Shown here one piece after another: positions 5,010 to 11,993 of a stretch of DNA of 33,773 nt. The stretch is from a virus. The position numbers were made by a program, and so were the translations under genes. Location: positions 1-33,773 of the IMG/VR virus record IMGVR_UViG_3300022072_000065; one strand, 5' to 3'. The notes beneath the pieces were generated by a model. That model was given only the letters and a program-made list of their open reading frames with translations. It made no database searches and was not told where the DNA came from. Every line of letters begins with the position of its first letter. The stretch's first letter is position 1.

Positions 5010-5213
5010 TCCGGCGCGGATCTCGTTGTGGGCTATGACTGACCTGAGAAGCTGCTCGTCGTGCGCGAGCAGCCACTCGATCGTCTGGTCTGAGTCGATG
5101 TAGATCGTCCGCGTCCAGTCGCAATCAGTCGTCAGCCTTGTTCCGCACCCAGCGAGAAGCGCGCTCCCGCAAAGCAGCATCGCCAAGGTTGTCAATTTCT
5201 TCACGCACACCAT
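4998..5213 (-). CDS. Outer-membrane spanin lipoprotein (Rz1-like)
   Basis: A 71-aa protein with a lipoprotein signal: MVCVKKL, a hydrophobic core AMLLCGSALLAGC with the lipobox LAGC, and the predicted lipidated cysteine at position 23. The mature part has CDW near its start and AHNEIRAGLC at the end, a pattern I associate with small phage o-spanin-like lipoproteins. The start is chosen at 5213 because GGAGG lies four bases upstream; the longer frame to 5276 would bury the signal peptide. It begins inside the i-spanin gene in another frame and runs past its end, a typical overlapping spanin arrangement. It lacks the proline-rich stretch of lambda Rz1. Confidence 0.75.
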   Translation of the reverse strand: MVCVKKLTTLAMLLCGSALLAGCGTRLTTDCDWTRTIYIDSDQTIEWLLAHDEQLLRSVIAHNEIRAGLCQ

Positions 5214-5361
5214 TCGACCTCCGCATCCTTTGGTTCGAGGCTCTTGCAGCCTCCGCAGCAATGCGCTCTTCTGCAATTCGCATCCAGTGGAACCGGAGAC
5301 CGAGGAGGCCTAGCGCAACGCCAAGAAGGATCAGGGCATAGATCCTAAGCTTATTCATCAT
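5125..5361 (-). CDS. Inner-membrane spanin (Rz-like)
   Basis: A 78-aa protein: one N-terminal membrane segment (RIYALILLGVALGLLGL) followed by a charged, probably coiled-coil periplasmic part (RIAEERIAAEAARASNQRMR and REEIDNLGDAALRERASRWV). This is the usual i-spanin plan. The frame can be read from a TTG at 5439 next to the endolysin stop, but GAGGAG nine bases before the ATG at 5361 and the position of the membrane segment favour 5361. It pairs with the overlapping lipoprotein gene and would bridge the envelope during the last step of lysis in a Gram-negative host. Confidence 0.75.
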   Translation of the reverse strand: MMNKLRIYALILLGVALGLLGLRFHWMRIAEERIAAEAARASNQRMRRSNGVREEIDNLGDAALRERASRWVRNKADD

Positions 5362-5440
5362 CGTCCAGAACTCCTCGGCCTCTTCGATTTGCTTATCGGC
5401 GCTGAGCAGGCTGAGATACACCAACCCGACATCGATCAAT

Positions 5441-6085
5441 TTAGCGCGCCCCAGCCATGAAGTCTTTCAGCCGATTGCGGAAGAACCACAACCCGAAAGC
5501 AACAAGCAAGAAGCCTCCGACCAGCGCGATGATCTGAGCTTGGCCGTCCAGAGCTGCAACAGCAGTTCCGATGCCAGTCGCGCCAGTCAGTATCTGGGTG
5601 GTAGATGCTTGGGCTGTCTTGGTCGCCGCAACTGATTGACGTGCGCCCTTTGCGCGTCGGATCGCCAAGAGGCGCGATGCAGGATAGGGTGCGATGCTGA
5701 CCTTGTTGCCTTGGTTGCCGCCAAGGACCATGACCATCCCGTTCTCGACACCGGCGAAGAATCCGACATGACCGTGAGCTGGATTTGGAGGGCGCTTAAA
5801 AACAACCACATCGCCGTGTTGTGCTTCGGCAAGGCTTGCGACAGGATCTCCCCAATTGGCGTAGGACCGAGCATTGAGCTTACCAGTGTGAGGAAGACCG
5901 AGCTGGGCAAGGACGGCCCCAACGAAGGATGCGCACCAAGGCGTCTCGTCGTCCTTGACCCATCCGTGCCCGACAGCCTTCGCGAAGCCGACGACAGTTT
6001 CGTTTTGGCGAGCGCCTGGATATTCCTTGAGCCCAAGATAGCCTTCTGCTGCGCTGAAAATTGCTTCATTCATTTCATCCGCCAT
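5441..6085 (-). CDS. Endolysin, TIGR02594-type NlpC/CHAP-like peptidase with C-terminal membrane segment
   Basis: A 214-aa enzyme. DETPWCASFVGAVL has the likely catalytic Cys51, HGDVVVFKRP is near 90-99, GHVGFFAG carries His106, and LGGNQGNKVSIAPYP with Asn124 completes the triad-like set of the TIGR02594 family of cell-wall peptidases. Residues about 183-203 form a hydrophobic segment ending in a basic cap, FFRNRLKDF, so the enzyme may be membrane-tethered through its C-terminus. That is uncommon for endolysins, where anchors are usually N-terminal. The gene overlaps the holin-like gene by 11 bases; an internal ATG at 6073 is an alternative start. Confidence 0.85.
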   Translation of the reverse strand: MADEMNEAIFSAAEGYLGLKEYPGARQNETVVGFAKAVGHGWVKDDETPWCASFVGAVLAQLGLPHTGKLNARSYANWGDPVASLAEAQHGDVVVFKRPPNPAHGHVGFFAGVENGMVMVLGGNQGNKVSIAPYPASRLLAIRRAKGARQSVAATKTAQASTTQILTGATGIGTAVAALDGQAQIIALVGGFLLVAFGLWFFRNRLKDFMAGAR

Positions 6086-6347
6086 TCTGTTTAAAAGTGT
6101 ACGTTATGCCAGCCGCCAGAACGATCCAGAAGATGCGCTCTGCGAAGCGCAAGGCCTGTCCATTGTTCCCTGAGTTCTGCTCGACAGCAGTGATCCGGTC
6201 GTTGTGCTTCTTGATCGCCTCTTCGAAGCTGTCGATCCGCTTGAAGACCGTCACCAGCCTCTCTTCGACGCGTGCCAGCACAACGATCGCTTTGCGGATT
6301 TCCTTGAGCTCGGTCTCGATGCTCGCTAATCTTGTGTCTTCGGTCAT
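6075..6347 (-). CDS. Holin-like protein (coiled coil plus C-terminal membrane segment)
   Basis: A 90-aa protein. The first 65 residues are amphipathic and probably coiled coil (IETELKEIRKAIVVLARVEE, then RIDSFEEAIKKHNDRI). A single hydrophobic segment near 71-86 (RIFWIVLAAGITYTF) is followed by a short basic tail. The layout resembles XhlA-type phage membrane proteins and small holins. It sits just before the endolysin gene and starts within the stop of the heme-oxygenase-like gene (ATGA). Holin function is inferred from position and topology. Confidence 0.7.
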   Translation of the reverse strand: MTEDTRLASIETELKEIRKAIVVLARVEERLVTVFKRIDSFEEAIKKHNDRITAVEQNSGNNGQALRFAERIFWIVLAAGITYTFKQNGG

Positions 6348-6871
6348 TGCCGCCCCTCAGTATTGCGTGCCTCGATCTCATCCATGACTTTGAACAAGAC
6401 CTCGAAGGCTCGTCTTGCACCGTCGGCGATGTGCGGAATCTCCCGCAACTTCTTTACGAACAGCTCTGCTTCTTGGGGCTGGTCGAATTGTATGTGGGCC
6501 GCTGGAAGGTCGACTCCGCGTAAACGCATTGCCTTCTCGATGACCTGTCCGCCGCGCCGGTGAGCGCCGATTGTCAGGTAGGCTCCGCCGAAGATGGCCG
6601 ATATCCCAGTGAGGGTCGCAGCGTAGACTGCTGCCGCCTTCGAGGGATTGGCCACCACCGGCAAGAGCGCCAGAAGGTCGTTGGCGAGCCGGTCGGCACG
6701 CCGAATGTGTGGCGGAAGGTATGGGTCCATGGCGAGCTGGATCGTCATGTGGGCGTGCAACCAGTCTGCCCATTCTTGTGCGGTGATGGAGCCGTCCACC
6801 ATGCGCTTAGCGAGAGGATGGCCCTCCGCCTTGTGGTGCAGATCACGTGTTGCTTCCCAGAGCGGACCCAT
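6344..6871 (-). CDS. Heme-oxygenase-like protein
   Basis: A 175-aa all-helical protein. LWEATRDLHHKAE at 4-16 aligns without gaps to the heme-ligand region of classical heme oxygenases (LKEAT-x-x-x-H-x-x-AE), placing His12 at the proximal ligand. YLTIGAHRRGGQVIEKA at 98-114 matches the distal helix signature G-D-x-S-GGQ, keeping GGQ (107-109) but with one extra residue and without the distal aspartate. The rest (QEAELFVKKLREI, then ARRAFEVLFKVMDEI) fits the family's last helices. Classical members open heme to biliverdin, CO and iron. The altered distal loop leaves it open whether this one is catalytic. TGATG and ATGA overlaps couple it to a fibre gene and to the holin-like gene. Confidence 0.75.
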   Translation of the reverse strand: MGPLWEATRDLHHKAEGHPLAKRMVDGSITAQEWADWLHAHMTIQLAMDPYLPPHIRRADRLANDLLALLPVVANPSKAAAVYAATLTGISAIFGGAYLTIGAHRRGGQVIEKAMRLRGVDLPAAHIQFDQPQEAELFVKKLREIPHIADGARRAFEVLFKVMDEIEARNTEGRQ

Positions 6872-7623
6872 CAGATTACCTCAAATTCTTCGCGTTGATT
6901 GGCGACGTAGTGGAGAGAAACCACGAGCTCGTCACCGGAGTTCACTCGAACATAGAGCATGTCCTGACTCTTCAAGATGGCCTTACCAACCGGAAGGCGG
7001 AACTTTGTTCCAGCAGAAACTTCGAGGCTGTCGACAAGAATCACTTCCTCACTCTCGTCGAAGTTAAGCACCTTGATCGAGACGTTCGCGTTACCTCCAG
7101 CAAATGACATCGCTGTCGTGATGTAACGAGACTCAACTTCACGAACGTTCTGCGGATCGATCTTGTCTTCCACCAGATAAGTCGGAGGCTGGGTGACGTA
7201 AGTCCATCCGCCCAAGACCTTCGCTGATGTTGAGCGGTAGACCCGCTCGAAGAGATTGAGCGGAGGTCTATTTGTTCTAATTTCCCTGCGGAACAAGTCT
7301 GACCCGAACATCGCGTGTCCAGATGATAGCATGGTCCCGTCGGAGTAGATTATCTTGCGGATCGAGCCTTGGCCAGATATTCTCGCCCCTGCCGCTGACA
7401 GATACCCGTCTGCTCTGTTCACGACCAAGAACTGCCCGAGACCTTCGATCTGCTGACCAGCGGCTTCCAGAGAGCCGTCCGCGTAGACCACGTTCGGCGA
7501 TGCTGTCAGCCCCTGAAAGCCGTGACCGGCCGACACGAGTATTCCGTCAGCGTAGATTACGAGCTGCTCGGCCGGACTCGGCGCTCCGAGAGGCGCGTCT
7601 GCGATGGGGCTGAAGCCTAGCAT
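6871..7623 (-). CDS. Tail-fibre-associated protein with YADG repeats
   Basis: A 250-aa protein in two parts. The first 110 residues hold four degenerate repeats of about 23 residues with the pattern YADG-x-L-x-AAG-x-x-I-x-G (VIYADGILVSAGHGFQG, VVYADGSLEAAGQQIEG, VVNRADGYLSAAG, KIIYSDGTMLSSG), probably beta-strand turns. The second part begins NRPPLNLFERVYRST and ends LHYVANQREEFEVI, and is paralogous to the protein encoded at 12408-12818. The start has GGAGG eight bases upstream. It is probably a virion surface or fibre-tip protein. It overlaps the heme-oxygenase-like gene by one base. Confidence 0.7.
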   Translation of the reverse strand: MLGFSPIADAPLGAPSPAEQLVIYADGILVSAGHGFQGLTASPNVVYADGSLEAAGQQIEGLGQFLVVNRADGYLSAAGARISGQGSIRKIIYSDGTMLSSGHAMFGSDLFRREIRTNRPPLNLFERVYRSTSAKVLGGWTYVTQPPTYLVEDKIDPQNVREVESRYITTAMSFAGGNANVSIKVLNFDESEEVILVDSLEVSAGTKFRLPVGKAILKSQDMLYVRVNSGDELVVSLHYVANQREEFEVI

Positions 7624-7626
7624 TGA

Positions 7627-8076
7627 TTATGCCTCCGGTTTGGTCGGCCAAGTGATGCTCCACGGGAAGCCCGCTTGGTCTGTGACGTCGCGCAACGACT
7701 GGCGGTATGCGGCCCACTCTGGAGTCATCGTGTTGTCGCTCAAGGCCATCCAGTCAGTCTGCTGCAGGAGGTAGTCCCGCTGCGATCGGACAGATTGCCC
7801 CTCGTTGTCGGTGCGCTGCGCGATCTCTTCGGGCGTTGCGTCTGTCACGTCCCAGACCTGTGTCCACGCTCCGTCGGTCAGGACAGCCGTTCCCTCGTTG
7901 ACGTTCTTCGTGTAATCCACCTCCGGACGCGGTGTCAGCGTCAGCGGGAATACATCCCAGTCCGCCAGAAGCGCGTCGCTGGGACGCTTCGGGAAGGACG
8001 TGTTCGGGTTGTCACGACGCAGTTGCCCGATTGAGTAATTCTCAGGCTGGCCGTTTGTGATCTTTACGTAGGACAT
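7627..8076 (-). CDS. Tail-fibre assembly chaperone (Phage_tail_APC-like)
   Basis: A 149-aa protein. The C-terminal stretch RSQRDYLLQQTDWMALSDN, WAAYRQSLRDVTDQAGFP and WPTKPE is the hallmark of the phage tail assembly chaperone domain found downstream of many fibre genes. The N-terminal half (VFPLTLTPRPEVDYTKNVNEG, then WTQVWDVTDATPEEIAQR) is also typical. Such proteins help fibres fold and attach and are usually not in the virion. Its position after the propeller genes fits that role. Confidence 0.85.
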   Translation of the reverse strand: MSYVKITNGQPENYSIGQLRRDNPNTSFPKRPSDALLADWDVFPLTLTPRPEVDYTKNVNEGTAVLTDGAWTQVWDVTDATPEEIAQRTDNEGQSVRSQRDYLLQQTDWMALSDNTMTPEWAAYRQSLRDVTDQAGFPWSITWPTKPEA

Positions 8077-8866: not shown

Positions 8867-9772
8867 TTATCCACCTGATGTTGCCGATAACTCATATCGC
8901 CCGACCGTTAAGTCTCCGAAATCGAAAGCATTTGCGATCGATGCTATGGTCAAATAGTCCATTGCGTTAGATGCCCCATATCCAGTATATCCGCCACCAT
9001 ATACCCCCCTTGAGCCATCGCTTGTGCCTGCCAATTTTTCTCTTGCCGCCACCAAATTGTTAAATCCAAGTGCATTGCCCAGAGTGGCAATCGTGATGAA
9101 GCGTATACCTCTGGTCACACTAGGTCCACCGCCCGCAAAGACACCTCTTGTGCCGTTTGATGCTGCACCAACGCCTTGTGTCGAATCGTATAGATCACCA
9201 AAATCTGTAGCGCTGCCCGTGGTGGCGATGGTGATGTAGTCCATAACATTGCTCCCGCCACCGCCTCCAGCAAACACCCCCCTTGTTTCGCTACCTACGG
9301 CGCAAAGGTAGTATCTAGCAACAGTCAAACTACCGAAGGGAGTTGCATCACCTTTACTCGCTATGGCGATGTAGTCTATAGTGCTCGATAAGCCGATTCC
9401 ACTAGCAAGCCCGCCAGCAAAAACACCTCTTGAACTGTCCGATGTTGCAGCACCATAGGACCTAGCCAGAGACAAGTTACCAAAGTCTGAAGCATTACTC
9501 GTTACGGCAATGGTGATATATTCTATGGTATTGCTTATAGATGAATCACCAGCAAACACGCCCCTATGGCCGTTTGAAGTTCCCATCGATAAACCTAGAT
9601 TGATTGTGTCGCCGAATGAAGCTGCGTTGCCAGTTGTCGCTATAGTGACGTAGTCAATGGTTCTTGTTCCGGTTCCCGGCGTTCTTCCTCCAGCGAACAC
9701 GCCCCTCGGCCCGAACAATGTGCCGACAACACCACCAGCCCCACCAGCACCTATCGCCTTGCCCCACAACAT
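8867..9772 (-). CDS. Six-repeat kelch-like propeller tail protein (copy 2)
   Basis: About 300 aa. After MLWGKAIGAGG and a Gly-rich linker come six repeats of about 46 residues, each starting RGVFAGG or close, with DYITIATTGNA-type and DFGDLT-type motifs and an ATS-x-GS-like end. Repeats with this core occur in marine phage tail proteins and are predicted to form kelch-like beta-propeller blades; six would close a ring. The start at 9772 is set by a TAATG overlap with the upstream gene, not by the longer frame to 9823. It is a paralogue of 10174-11091, with blades that have diverged more from each other. Receptor or glycan binding is likely by inference. Confidence 0.8.
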   Translation of the reverse strand: MLWGKAIGAGGAGGVVGTLFGPRGVFAGGRTPGTGTRTIDYVTIATTGNAASFGDTINLGLSMGTSNGHRGVFAGDSSISNTIEYITIAVTSNASDFGNLSLARSYGAATSDSSRGVFAGGLASGIGLSSTIDYIAIASKGDATPFGSLTVARYYLCAVGSETRGVFAGGGGGSNVMDYITIATTGSATDFGDLYDSTQGVGAASNGTRGVFAGGGPSVTRGIRFITIATLGNALGFNNLVAAREKLAGTSDGSRGVYGGGYTGYGASNAMDYLTIASIANAFDFGDLTVGRYELSATSGG

Positions 9773-10131
9773 TACGAACCATCCCCGACGAGTGCGCCGT
9801 ACAGCACAGTTGATACTTTCCACAGTGCAATAACCGTAGGAACATCAGTGGCAAGCGTAGGAGCAGCGCCAGCGTTGTTGACCCACGTCATCGTAGGCCA
9901 TGTGACCGCGAACCCAGTACCGTCGTCGATCATGAGCGTGATGCCCTGACCGGCGGAGAACCCGTCGGTGTATGTGGTGGCTCCCGTCAGGGTGTGCGTC
10001 TGCACAGAGCCGTTGTCCGGCTCGAGCGCAACACTCGTGCCGGTGATCGCGTACACGTCCTCGGTGATCGTGCCACTGGTCACGACAGGGCTCGTACGTC
10101 CGAAGTTGGCTAGGTCGCGTGCGTTGGTCAT
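9772..10131 (-). CDS. Short fibre-head protein (copy 2 of duplicated module)
   Basis: A 119-aa protein starting MTNARDLANFG, a motif seen at the N-terminus of many phage tail-fibre proteins. From about residue 25 on (EDVYAITG, GSVQTHTLTGATTYTDG, TLMIDDGTG, VTWPTMTWVNNAGAAP, LWKVST-x-LYGALVGDGS) it is clearly homologous to the last third of the protein at 11091-11993. It has lost the longer N-terminal part of that paralogue and has a different attachment end. Its stop overlaps the next start (TAATG). Its ATG overlaps the stop of the relic frame at 10128 (ATGA). Confidence 0.8.
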   Translation of the reverse strand: MTNARDLANFGRTSPVVTSGTITEDVYAITGTSVALEPDNGSVQTHTLTGATTYTDGFSAGQGITLMIDDGTGFAVTWPTMTWVNNAGAAPTLATDVPTVIALWKVSTVLYGALVGDGS

Positions 10132-10173: not shown

Positions 10174-11091
10174 TTATCCACCTGATGTTGCTGCCAGATC
10201 GCTTCTGCGCAAAGTTAAATCACCGAAGTCGGTGGCATTGCCCAGCGTTGCGATAGTAATGTAGTCAATAGTGGTAAGCCTAATGCTAGTAACCCCCCCA
10301 CCGAACACACCTCTGGGGCCGTCACTTGTTGCGGTTAGTATCTGTCTAGCTTGGGTCAAATCACCAAAGTCAGCGGCGTTACCAGTAGTGGCGATTGTGA
10401 TGTATTGGATAGTATTGGAAACAGCTCCGCCCACAATACCTCCGCCGAACACACCACGGGAACCGTCGCTTGTAGCCCCTTGTCGTTGTGTTGTTTGTAC
10501 CAAATCACCAAAGTCGATAGCGTTGCCTGTGGTAGCGATTGTGATGTAGTCGATGGTGTTGCTGGAAACATTTCCCCCGCCAAAAACACCCCTAGAGCCA
10601 TCACTCGTAGCGGCAAGAAAATACCTACTTGCAGTCAAATCACCAAAATCGTCAGCAAAGCCCAAACTGGCGATGGTGATGTAGTCGATGGTGTTAACAC
10701 CAGCTCCACCCACACTAACAGAACCCCCTGCAAACACGCCGCGAGAGCCGTCGCCCGTACCCGCGAGCATATATCTCGCTAGGGTCAGTTGGCCGGAACT
10801 TACAGCGTTTCCGGTTGTGGCGATTGTGATATACTGAGTAATATTGATAGGCTGACCGACGAAGCCTCCACCGAACACACCCCTAGAGCCATCACTCGTA
10901 GCGGCAAGATCATACGTGGCGTTCACCAAATCACCAAAGTCAGTGGCGTTACCAGTAGTGGGGATGGTGATGTAGTCAATGACGTTAGGAACTGGATTGT
11001 CGTAACCCCCGCCAAACACACCTCTCGGCCCGAATAGCACAGGTGCTCCGCCAAGCGTCCCGCCAGCACCGATAAGACCACGCTTCAGCAT
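10174..11091 (-). CDS. Six-repeat kelch-like propeller tail protein (copy 1)
   Basis: About 305 aa. Begins MLKRGLIGAGG, a Gly-rich linker and LFGPRGVFGGG, then six well-conserved repeats of 45-50 residues with the core NTIDYITIATTGNA-x-DFGDL and ends such as AATSDGS. The blades are more alike than in copy 2, so this copy may be under stronger homogenisation. The start at 11091 is fixed by the TAATG overlap with the fibre-head gene. Probably a receptor-binding propeller at the end of a fibre or tail tip. Confidence 0.8.
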   Translation of the reverse strand: MLKRGLIGAGGTLGGAPVLFGPRGVFGGGYDNPVPNVIDYITIPTTGNATDFGDLVNATYDLAATSDGSRGVFGGGFVGQPINITQYITIATTGNAVSSGQLTLARYMLAGTGDGSRGVFAGGSVSVGGAGVNTIDYITIASLGFADDFGDLTASRYFLAATSDGSRGVFGGGNVSSNTIDYITIATTGNAIDFGDLVQTTQRQGATSDGSRGVFGGGIVGGAVSNTIQYITIATTGNAADFGDLTQARQILTATSDGPRGVFGGGVTSIRLTTIDYITIATLGNATDFGDLTLRRSDLAATSGG

Positions 11092-11993
11092 TACGAACCA
11101 TCCCCGACGAGTGCGCCGTAGAGTGTTGTGCTTACCTTCCACAGCTGGACAGTCGTGTATCCGGTGGTCGCCAAGTCGGGCGCGGCACCTGCGTTATTGA
11201 TCCACGTCATGGTGGGCCACGTGACCGCCTGCCCTGCTCCGTCGTCGACCATCAGCGTGATAGCTTCACCGTCCGAGAGGGAATCCGTATATGTGGTGGC
11301 ACCAGACAGCGTGTGGGTCTGCACGGTTCCGTTGGACGGATCAAGTGCGGGGGTCGTGCCAGTCAGTGCGAACACCTGCTCGACGATGGAGGCTCCGAAG
11401 GTGGCGTCTCCCGACACGGTGGTGGTCGACGAGAACGTCACCCCACCACTGAACGTGCCGCCAGACGCAGGGACATACTCGACATCAACACCGATTGTTG
11501 TCCACGCAATGATCTCAACAAGATCGCCAGCCGAGGCTCCTGTGCTCAAGACTACAGATGTTCCGTCAGTGGCCGTGTAATCCGCAGTGCCGAGCTTAGA
11601 ACCATTCAAGAAGACGTCGACGTAGCCTATCGTGTAAACCGCAGAGAATGTGGTTTGACCACCACTCGCGGTGAAGTTCAGCTTCGTGTAAGCCACACCG
11701 CGCAACAAGTCTTCAGCGGCTGCGGTGACGAATACCTTGGCCGCTCCGGCGAGCGTGATCAAAGAATCAGCGTTGCTGCTCTCGTCGACTGTCCGAGTCA
11801 GTGTTCCAGCTGAGTAGACCCCAGAGCCTATCTCCCACTGACTTTCTTCTTCGATGACGTAACGAACGGTGTCGCCGTCGGAGACCCCAGCATCAGCAAA
11901 AGACTGATAACCCTCCAACGCTGCACCGAGTGAAAGCGTCCCAGTCCCAGTGGTCGCTGTCTCGACATACGCTCTGTTTACGAGGACGACCAT
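11091..11993 (-). CDS. Fibre-head protein (copy 1, full length)
   Basis: A 300-aa protein. The N-terminus MVVLVNRAYVETATTGTG, then VIEEESQWEIGSGVYSAGTLTR, is a common phage fibre attachment domain. A middle domain contains TFSAVYTIGYVDVFLNGSKL. The last 95 residues are shared with the 119-aa paralogue at 9772-10131. GGGAG precedes the ATG. Coupling by TAATG to a propeller gene suggests the two proteins assemble together, this one as the base and the propeller as the tip. Confidence 0.8.
   Translation of the reverse strand: MVVLVNRAYVETATTGTGTLSLGAALEGYQSFADAGVSDGDTVRYVIEEESQWEIGSGVYSAGTLTRTVDESSNADSLITLAGAAKVFVTAAAEDLLRGVAYTKLNFTASGGQTTFSAVYTIGYVDVFLNGSKLGTADYTATDGTSVVLSTGASAGDLVEIIAWTTIGVDVEYVPASGGTFSGGVTFSSTTTVSGDATFGASIVEQVFALTGTTPALDPSNGTVQTHTLSGATTYTDSLSDGEAITLMVDDGAGQAVTWPTMTWINNAGAAPDLATTGYTTVQLWKVSTTLYGALVGDGS

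Follow-up and report, generated by a model that had tools for sequence, protein, structure and literature searches.

A predicted late-expressed heme oxygenase of a distinct family in uncultured phages

The protein P0001, encoded in the virus record IMGVR_UViG_3300022072_000065 (33.8 kb; the whole stretch of 33,773 nt was analysed and is referred to as the window), is probably a late-expressed phage heme oxygenase (HO) of a distinct family, a reading to which we give a probability of about 0.6 from sequence comparison and structure modelling. Enzymes of this kind normally degrade the pigment heme. Known phage heme oxygenases belong to pigment cassettes and are thought to serve light harvesting. 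A first-pass annotation of the window had set P0001 apart from the pigment-linked HOs of cyanophages, and this separation is supported, as is one from the pigment-cassette HOs of pelagiphages: the P0001 family is found without bilin reductase and among late tail and lysis genes, so that another reason for its presence is needed, be it iron, heme removal, redox or lysis control. The family also gives a naturally occurring case, outside plants, in which to examine how an HO functions when the catalytic Asp is replaced by His.

Gene setting of P0001 in the window

The P0001 gene and its neighbours lie on the minus strand in the order tail-fibre assembly, fibre/tip, P0001, holin/XhlA-like and CHAP/TIGR02594 endolysin:

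7627..8076, minus strand: tail-fibre assembly / Phage_tail_APC protein (PF16778, E=2.4e-18; PHROG tail fibre assembly)
6871..7623, minus strand: putative tail-fibre/tip protein, upstream neighbour of the P0001 gene
6344..6871, minus strand: heme oxygenase-family protein P0001, intact ORF of 175 codons (175 aa)
6075..6347, minus strand: XhlA/holin-like coiled coil with a C-terminal hydrophobic segment, downstream of the P0001 gene
5441..6085, minus strand: endolysin (CHAP, E=2.1e-8; TIGR02594, E=2.1e-29, above cut-off)

The stop codon of the fibre gene and the startcodon of the P0001 gene share one nucleotide (TGATG), the P0001 stop and the ATG of the holin-like gene overlap by 4 nt (ATGA, as read from the sequence), and the holin-like and endolysin genes overlap by 11 nt; the gene limits of 6344-6871 and both start-stop overlaps with the fibre and holin-like genes had been given correctly in the first-pass annotation. 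The fibre/tip protein was without a match in the profile libraries searched, and was called from its position after the Tfa-like gene and from a gene at the same position in a related locus, L004 (53% identity). The holin-like label proposed earlier for the downstream neighbour finds matches of limited strength, as XhlA (E=9e-4) stays below the Pfam cut-off and the 'hol-like' PHROG_25947 is matched at E=6e-5. Scans for promoters and terminators found no signal exceeding chance expectation. The position of the P0001 gene among its neighbours implies that it is expressed late, as had been suggested before. A long-tailed phage is indicated by the tape-measure protein and by a J-type central fibre protein, and the terminase has its nearest counterparts in Pseudanabaena phage Pam3 (61%) and in Rhizobium phages (59%).

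Heme oxygenase homology and the P0001 family

Four computational lines agree that P0001 is a heme oxygenase homologue, and its similarity to HOs is not a matter of chance. P0001 matches Pfam PF01126 just above the cut-off of 23 (23.5 bits, E=5.7e-5), with 26.6 bits for the orthologue in L007, and 39/55 relatives match this profile at E<=0.1. When a profile made from the 55 relatives, without any canonical HO, was searched against the PDB, the best matches were heme oxygenases (E=2.9e-5), as were all 26 sequences at E<=0.2, the only other matches being a few unrelated GRB2 entries with E>0.3. Profile-profile alignment (hhalign) of the family with seven canonical HOs gave a probability of 98% (E=3e-13, 165 columns), against 0.1% for a negative control of mixed unrelated neighbour proteins. 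An AlphaFold2 model of P0001 based on the family-only alignment (canonical HOs left out) had a pLDDT of 95.3 and a pTM of 0.91, while a model based on only five close orthologues (pLDDT 44.5) was discarded. The predicted fold is all-helical and of the HO type, as in superfamily PF01126; a VIA-align comparison with heme-bound rat HO-1 (Z 18.5, 2.5 A, 172/175 residues) thus places P0001, at the level of the fold, with the heme-bound HOs. The top 47 entries of the VIA-align search were HOs without exception, and Foldseek agrees with this fold. A heme-oxygenase-like diiron oxidase, which we took to be another possible identity of P0001, would be compatible with the fold search alone, but was rejected because the sequence matches in the PDB are HOs and the invariant residues are those of the heme site.

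Close orthologues of P0001 were found in seven IMG/VR loci, two being 100% identical and the rest 68-74%. A search with the neighbouring endolysin led to two loci (L103 and L104) with a 38% identical homologue at the same place. With P0001 and this homologue as joint queries, 80 loci were retrieved, mostly at 32-48% identity; the 55 distinct proteins aligned from this set are referred to as the P0001 family. In a tree with phage pigment HOs and with cyanobacterial, Leptospira and actinobacterial HOs, the family forms one clade (support 100/100) on a long stem; only the separation of the family from canonical HOs was used from this tree, because of its long branches, and the long stem may mean that function has shifted. 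The dN/dS ratio was 0.18-0.23 for P0001 versus its orthologues and 0.05-0.37 for ten pairs of family members, and by this sequence measure the family is under purifying selection. No family member was found in 50,697 phage records (isolates), in the plasmids searched or in one pattern-limited scan of species genomes. Within the databases searched, the contigs carrying the family come from uncultured phages only, which are siphovirus-like, GTA-like or T4-like. Our literature searches gave no description of the family, which is apparently a distinct and undescribed family of phage HOs. A frameshifted or broken family member is located at L203:4989-5487, after a ferredoxin-NADP reductase assigned by eye, on a contig which may be non-phage.

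Active-site residues compared with known heme oxygenases

The residues expected to form the heme site are encoded at three places in the P0001 gene:

6824..6850, minus strand: proximal-helix motif T8-R9-D10-L11-H12-H13-x-x-E16, with H12 equivalent to the heme ligand His25 and E16 to Glu29 of HO-1
6548..6580, minus strand: distal-helix motif Y98-x4-A103-H104-x2-G107-G108, with a plant-type Ala-His for Gly139-Asp140 and with Y98 at a heme propionate site
6443..6445, minus strand: codon of R143, equivalent to the heme propionate contact Arg183 of HO-1 and invariant (55/55)

Twenty-two of the 175 P0001 positions are invariant among the 55 relatives. These include T8, R9, D10, L11, H12, H13 and E16 of the proximal helix and Y98, A103, H104, G107 and G108 of the distal helix (each 55/55), and an HMM alignment maps the invariant set on HO-1 as Lys22 (R9), His25 (H12), Glu29 (E16), Tyr134 (Y98), Gly143-Gly144 (G107-G108), Arg183 (R143) and Phe207 (F156). 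Seven of 13 HO-1 active-site positions taken from the literature are invariant (hypergeometric p=2e-4, with the list made afterwards), and an eighth, Tyr58, is nearly uniform as His. The gap-free alignment of the proximal-His motif to classical HOs, claimed from the sequence at first reading, was borne out by both MAFFT and the HMM alignment to HO-1, the conservation of His12 in relatives is complete, and the distal helix has the Gly-Gly(-Gln) that had been noted. The same reading was correct that the distal Asp is missing, but Gly139-Asp140 of HO-1 are replaced in register by Ala103-His104 in 55/55 family members, as in plant HOs; the extra loop residue it described is not there, as in both alignments Y98-A103-H104-G107-G108 fall without a gap on Y134-G139-D140-G143-G144 at the HO-1 spacing.

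Other positions of the canonical pocket have changed. The position of Arg136 is Leu in 53/55 relatives and Thr in P0001, and with His at the Asp140 position throughout (55/55) the canonical distal Arg136-Asp140 network is absent; that of Asn210 is mostly Leu, that of Tyr58 is His in 52/55 relatives and Gln in P0001, and that of Lys18 is aromatic. The alignments thus show a family that retains its proximal and propionate side but has a rebuilt distal hydrogen-bond network. Further His or Cys residues, invariant or nearly so and atypical of canonical HOs, lie beside the proximal ligand (H13, A15, which is Cys in 50/55 relatives, and H18) and at H126; a second metal site may be considered.

P0001 combines features of several groups of HOs. 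With the canonical HOs (mammalian HO-1, HmuO and cyanobacterial HO) it shares the fold, the His/Glu pair, Gly-Gly, Tyr134, Arg183 and Phe207, whereas the family lacks the distal Asp and Arg, has about 20% identity to them and is shorter (about 165-180 aa). With the plant-type enzymes (soybean GmHO-1 and Arabidopsis HY1) it shares the Ala-His pair at the same spacing from Tyr and Gly, and likewise the absence of Arg136 with Tyr134 and Arg183 kept. In contrast, the proximal His of GmHO-1 is, in the alignment, shifted 13 residues upstream with a shortened first helix, while His12 of P0001 is in the HO-1 register and retains its Glu29 partner, so that the proximal register is bacterial/mammalian; in the fold comparison, Z reaches 18.5 with mammalian and bacterial HOs but is 13.6 with Arabidopsis HO1, so the structure is closer to the former. 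The pseudo-HOs PfHO and AtHO2 resemble P0001 in having an HO fold with an altered active site, but the His ligand has been lost from both of them and the Gly-Gly from PfHO as well (PMC11634067), whereas the P0001 family keeps the ligand and the Gly-Gly (55/55). Finally, the HOs of phage pigment cassettes (P-SSM2 Ho1, Mosig HemO and those of freshwater T4-like phages), which have been shown to be enzymatically active (PMC11480375, PMC3037559), are phage-encoded like P0001, and in the compact T4-like ones both termini resemble those of P0001; these HOs keep the distal GDL-GG, and the compact ones tested adjoin a bilin reductase, neither of which is true for the P0001 family. Compact canonical HOs of this kind (HMGDLFGGQ) were seen at L009:5998-7216 and in about 70 related loci (L019-L090) on freshwater or marine T4-like contigs; those loci that were checked have a bilin reductase next.

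Soybean HO-1 is an active, ferredoxin-dependent enzyme with a distal network based on Ala149-His150, and its Tyr144/Ala149/His150/Gly153 are in the register of Y98/A103/H104/G107 of P0001 (PMC7948506). The missing distal Asp on its own therefore does not mean a dead enzyme. As the Ala-His pair of GmHO-1 supports activity and the losses seen in pseudo-HOs are absent here, the sequences and the model make it very likely that P0001 binds heme, and they favour oxygenase activity slightly over peroxidase activity or sequestration. P0001 might alternatively be a heme-binding peroxidase or heme-sequestering protein which no longer opens heme, for instance against late oxidative damage; the proximal site would then still serve to hold heme, while the Gly139Ala and Asp140His changes would divert the chemistry. 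We regard this as unlikely, though it deserves weight: the Ala-His pair is invariant in the family, Asp140Ala turns human HO-1 into a peroxidase (PMC5623701), and replacement of Gly139 is reported to do the same in the title of Liu et al. 2000, as cited in PMC5542595. The best PDB scores of the family profile go to HO-1 G139A entries, a match which fits the Ala and is silent on activity. These phenotypes come from engineered human variants and not from a naturally adapted pocket, and soybean HO-1 is active with the very same Ala-His. By analogy, the sensitivity of human HO-1 at Gly139 and Asp140, where Asp140His strongly lowers activity (PMC7948506), would nevertheless count against an enzyme, as would the sequence changes at distal Arg136 and Asn210, which are not kept, and at the aromatic Lys18 position.

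Genomic context across relatives and possible function

Across the relatives the upstream genes of the P0001 family belong to many unrelated families, while the P0001-type protein itself is conserved; named upstream matches are mostly tail or structural genes, though many are unnamed. Among the scanned loci, the gene directly downstream is a GTA-like tail assembly gene in nine and an 'L-shaped tail fibre assembly' gene in eight. Lysis genes are located at most three genes away in the window, L004, L007 and about nine more loci, some assigned by eye (L134, L137, L163, L167, L180, L183, L185, L192, L199). Placement beside tail or lysis genes is thus common, and adjacency to lysis genes is only a part of this, in about a dozen loci. 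The lysis neighbours described at first for the window therefore recur in some related phages, with other family members in tail modules, and no family member lies in the flanks examined of L105 and L106, whose lysis cassettes are related to the window's, or of L109, with a cassette related to that of L004; a link to lysis as a general feature is not borne out.

Where the family gene does lie next to lysis genes, its partners vary. The endolysin is of the CHAP type in the window and L004 (L004:6776-7444) and amidase-like, with weak Pfam support, in L007 (L007:6770-7369); in L004 and L007 alike, the HO-like and TM/coiled-coil genes ahead of it are conserved. The build of the holin-like protein also varies between loci. 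In L103 and L192 the 38% homologue of P0001 precedes a holin-like gene which is 87% identical to that of the window, so the type of gene is kept and its sequence has changed; replacement by such a homologue at the same place suggests that the activity is useful at that position.

Bilin reductase genes are directly downstream of canonical compact phage HOs in 9/9 loci checked, whereas none was found near P0001 family members in the loci checked; likewise, PF05996 was matched in 0/27 family contigs versus 2/2 canonical-HO contigs, bearing in mind that the contigs may be fragments. No second PF01126 match was found in the family contigs searched, and no Fer2 ferredoxin in 29 contigs searched, which included 27 family contigs. 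The PHROG label phrog_5115 'ferredoxin' on neighbouring genes was considered for an electron donor and set aside, as the protein checked (L167:5720-6136) is an endolysin-type peptidase and the label is probably wrong.

If P0001 is an oxygenase, host heme would be bound between the proximal (H12/E16) and distal (A103-H104-x2-GG) helices, and O2 would be activated via an Ala-His hydrogen-bond network of the soybean HO-1 kind. Electrons would presumably come from a host ferredoxin or reductase, given that no Fer2 ferredoxin was found in the 27 family contigs. Heme would then be opened to biliverdin, Fe2+ and CO late in infection, and the likeliest benefit, which we infer from the setting, would be late removal of host heme with release of iron rather than pigment synthesis. 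Delivery of this iron to virions, as had been proposed, is not favoured: the Ferrojan-horse idea places iron in phage tail proteins (background in PMC11705849), and none of five tail, fibre or neighbouring proteins checked contained an HxH motif as an iron site.

In a possible role in lysis timing, a late HO would remove heme and release CO, so that respiration and proton-motive force fall and the adjacent holin is triggered. The idea is attractive because inhibition of respiration by KCN leads to early lysis, and lambda lysis is triggered once the proton-motive force falls by 40% (PMC3166277). In the window and in relatives the family gene is coupled by start-stop overlaps or closely spaced to TM/holin-like and endolysin genes, and in about a dozen loci lysis genes follow shortly downstream. 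This role is nonetheless highly improbable, when nine loci have the gene before a GTA-like tail gene and eight before an L-shaped-tail-fibre-assembly gene instead, homologous lysis cassettes do without it (L105, L106, L109), and holin-like and endolysin genes are exchanged around it. Equally doubtful is the broader scenario of a phage HO lineage which independently acquired a plant-type pocket and in which end-of-infection heme breakdown or CO helps to set the time of lysis. The recurring position next to fibre and tail genes in different phages could also be explained if P0001 were a structural component of the adjacent tail fibre or a chaperone-like protein serving it, reusing the HO fold with no need for heme. 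The heme-ligand and heme-contact residues, for which a chaperone would have no need, are selectively kept, and the P0001-type protein is conserved next to upstream genes of many unrelated families, which leaves such a role with a very slight probability, marginally below that of lysis timing. The late-expressed HO remains our preferred reading of P0001.

Two further regions of the window can be set beside L004. On the minus strand, 8867-9823 and 10174-11142 encode two paralogues with repeated 'RGVFGGG...IDYITIATTGNA.DFGDLT' units (PHROG_19111), and the corresponding region of L004 encodes an unrelated protein of 745 aa, which suggests that a receptor-binding module has been swapped. After the endolysin, 5125-5439 (minus strand) encodes a small membrane-anchored protein, and in L004 the genes at 7396-7680 and 7529-7795 include an overlapping frame with a lipobox-like LLLVSGCS; this arrangement in L004 looks like an inner/outer spanin pair.
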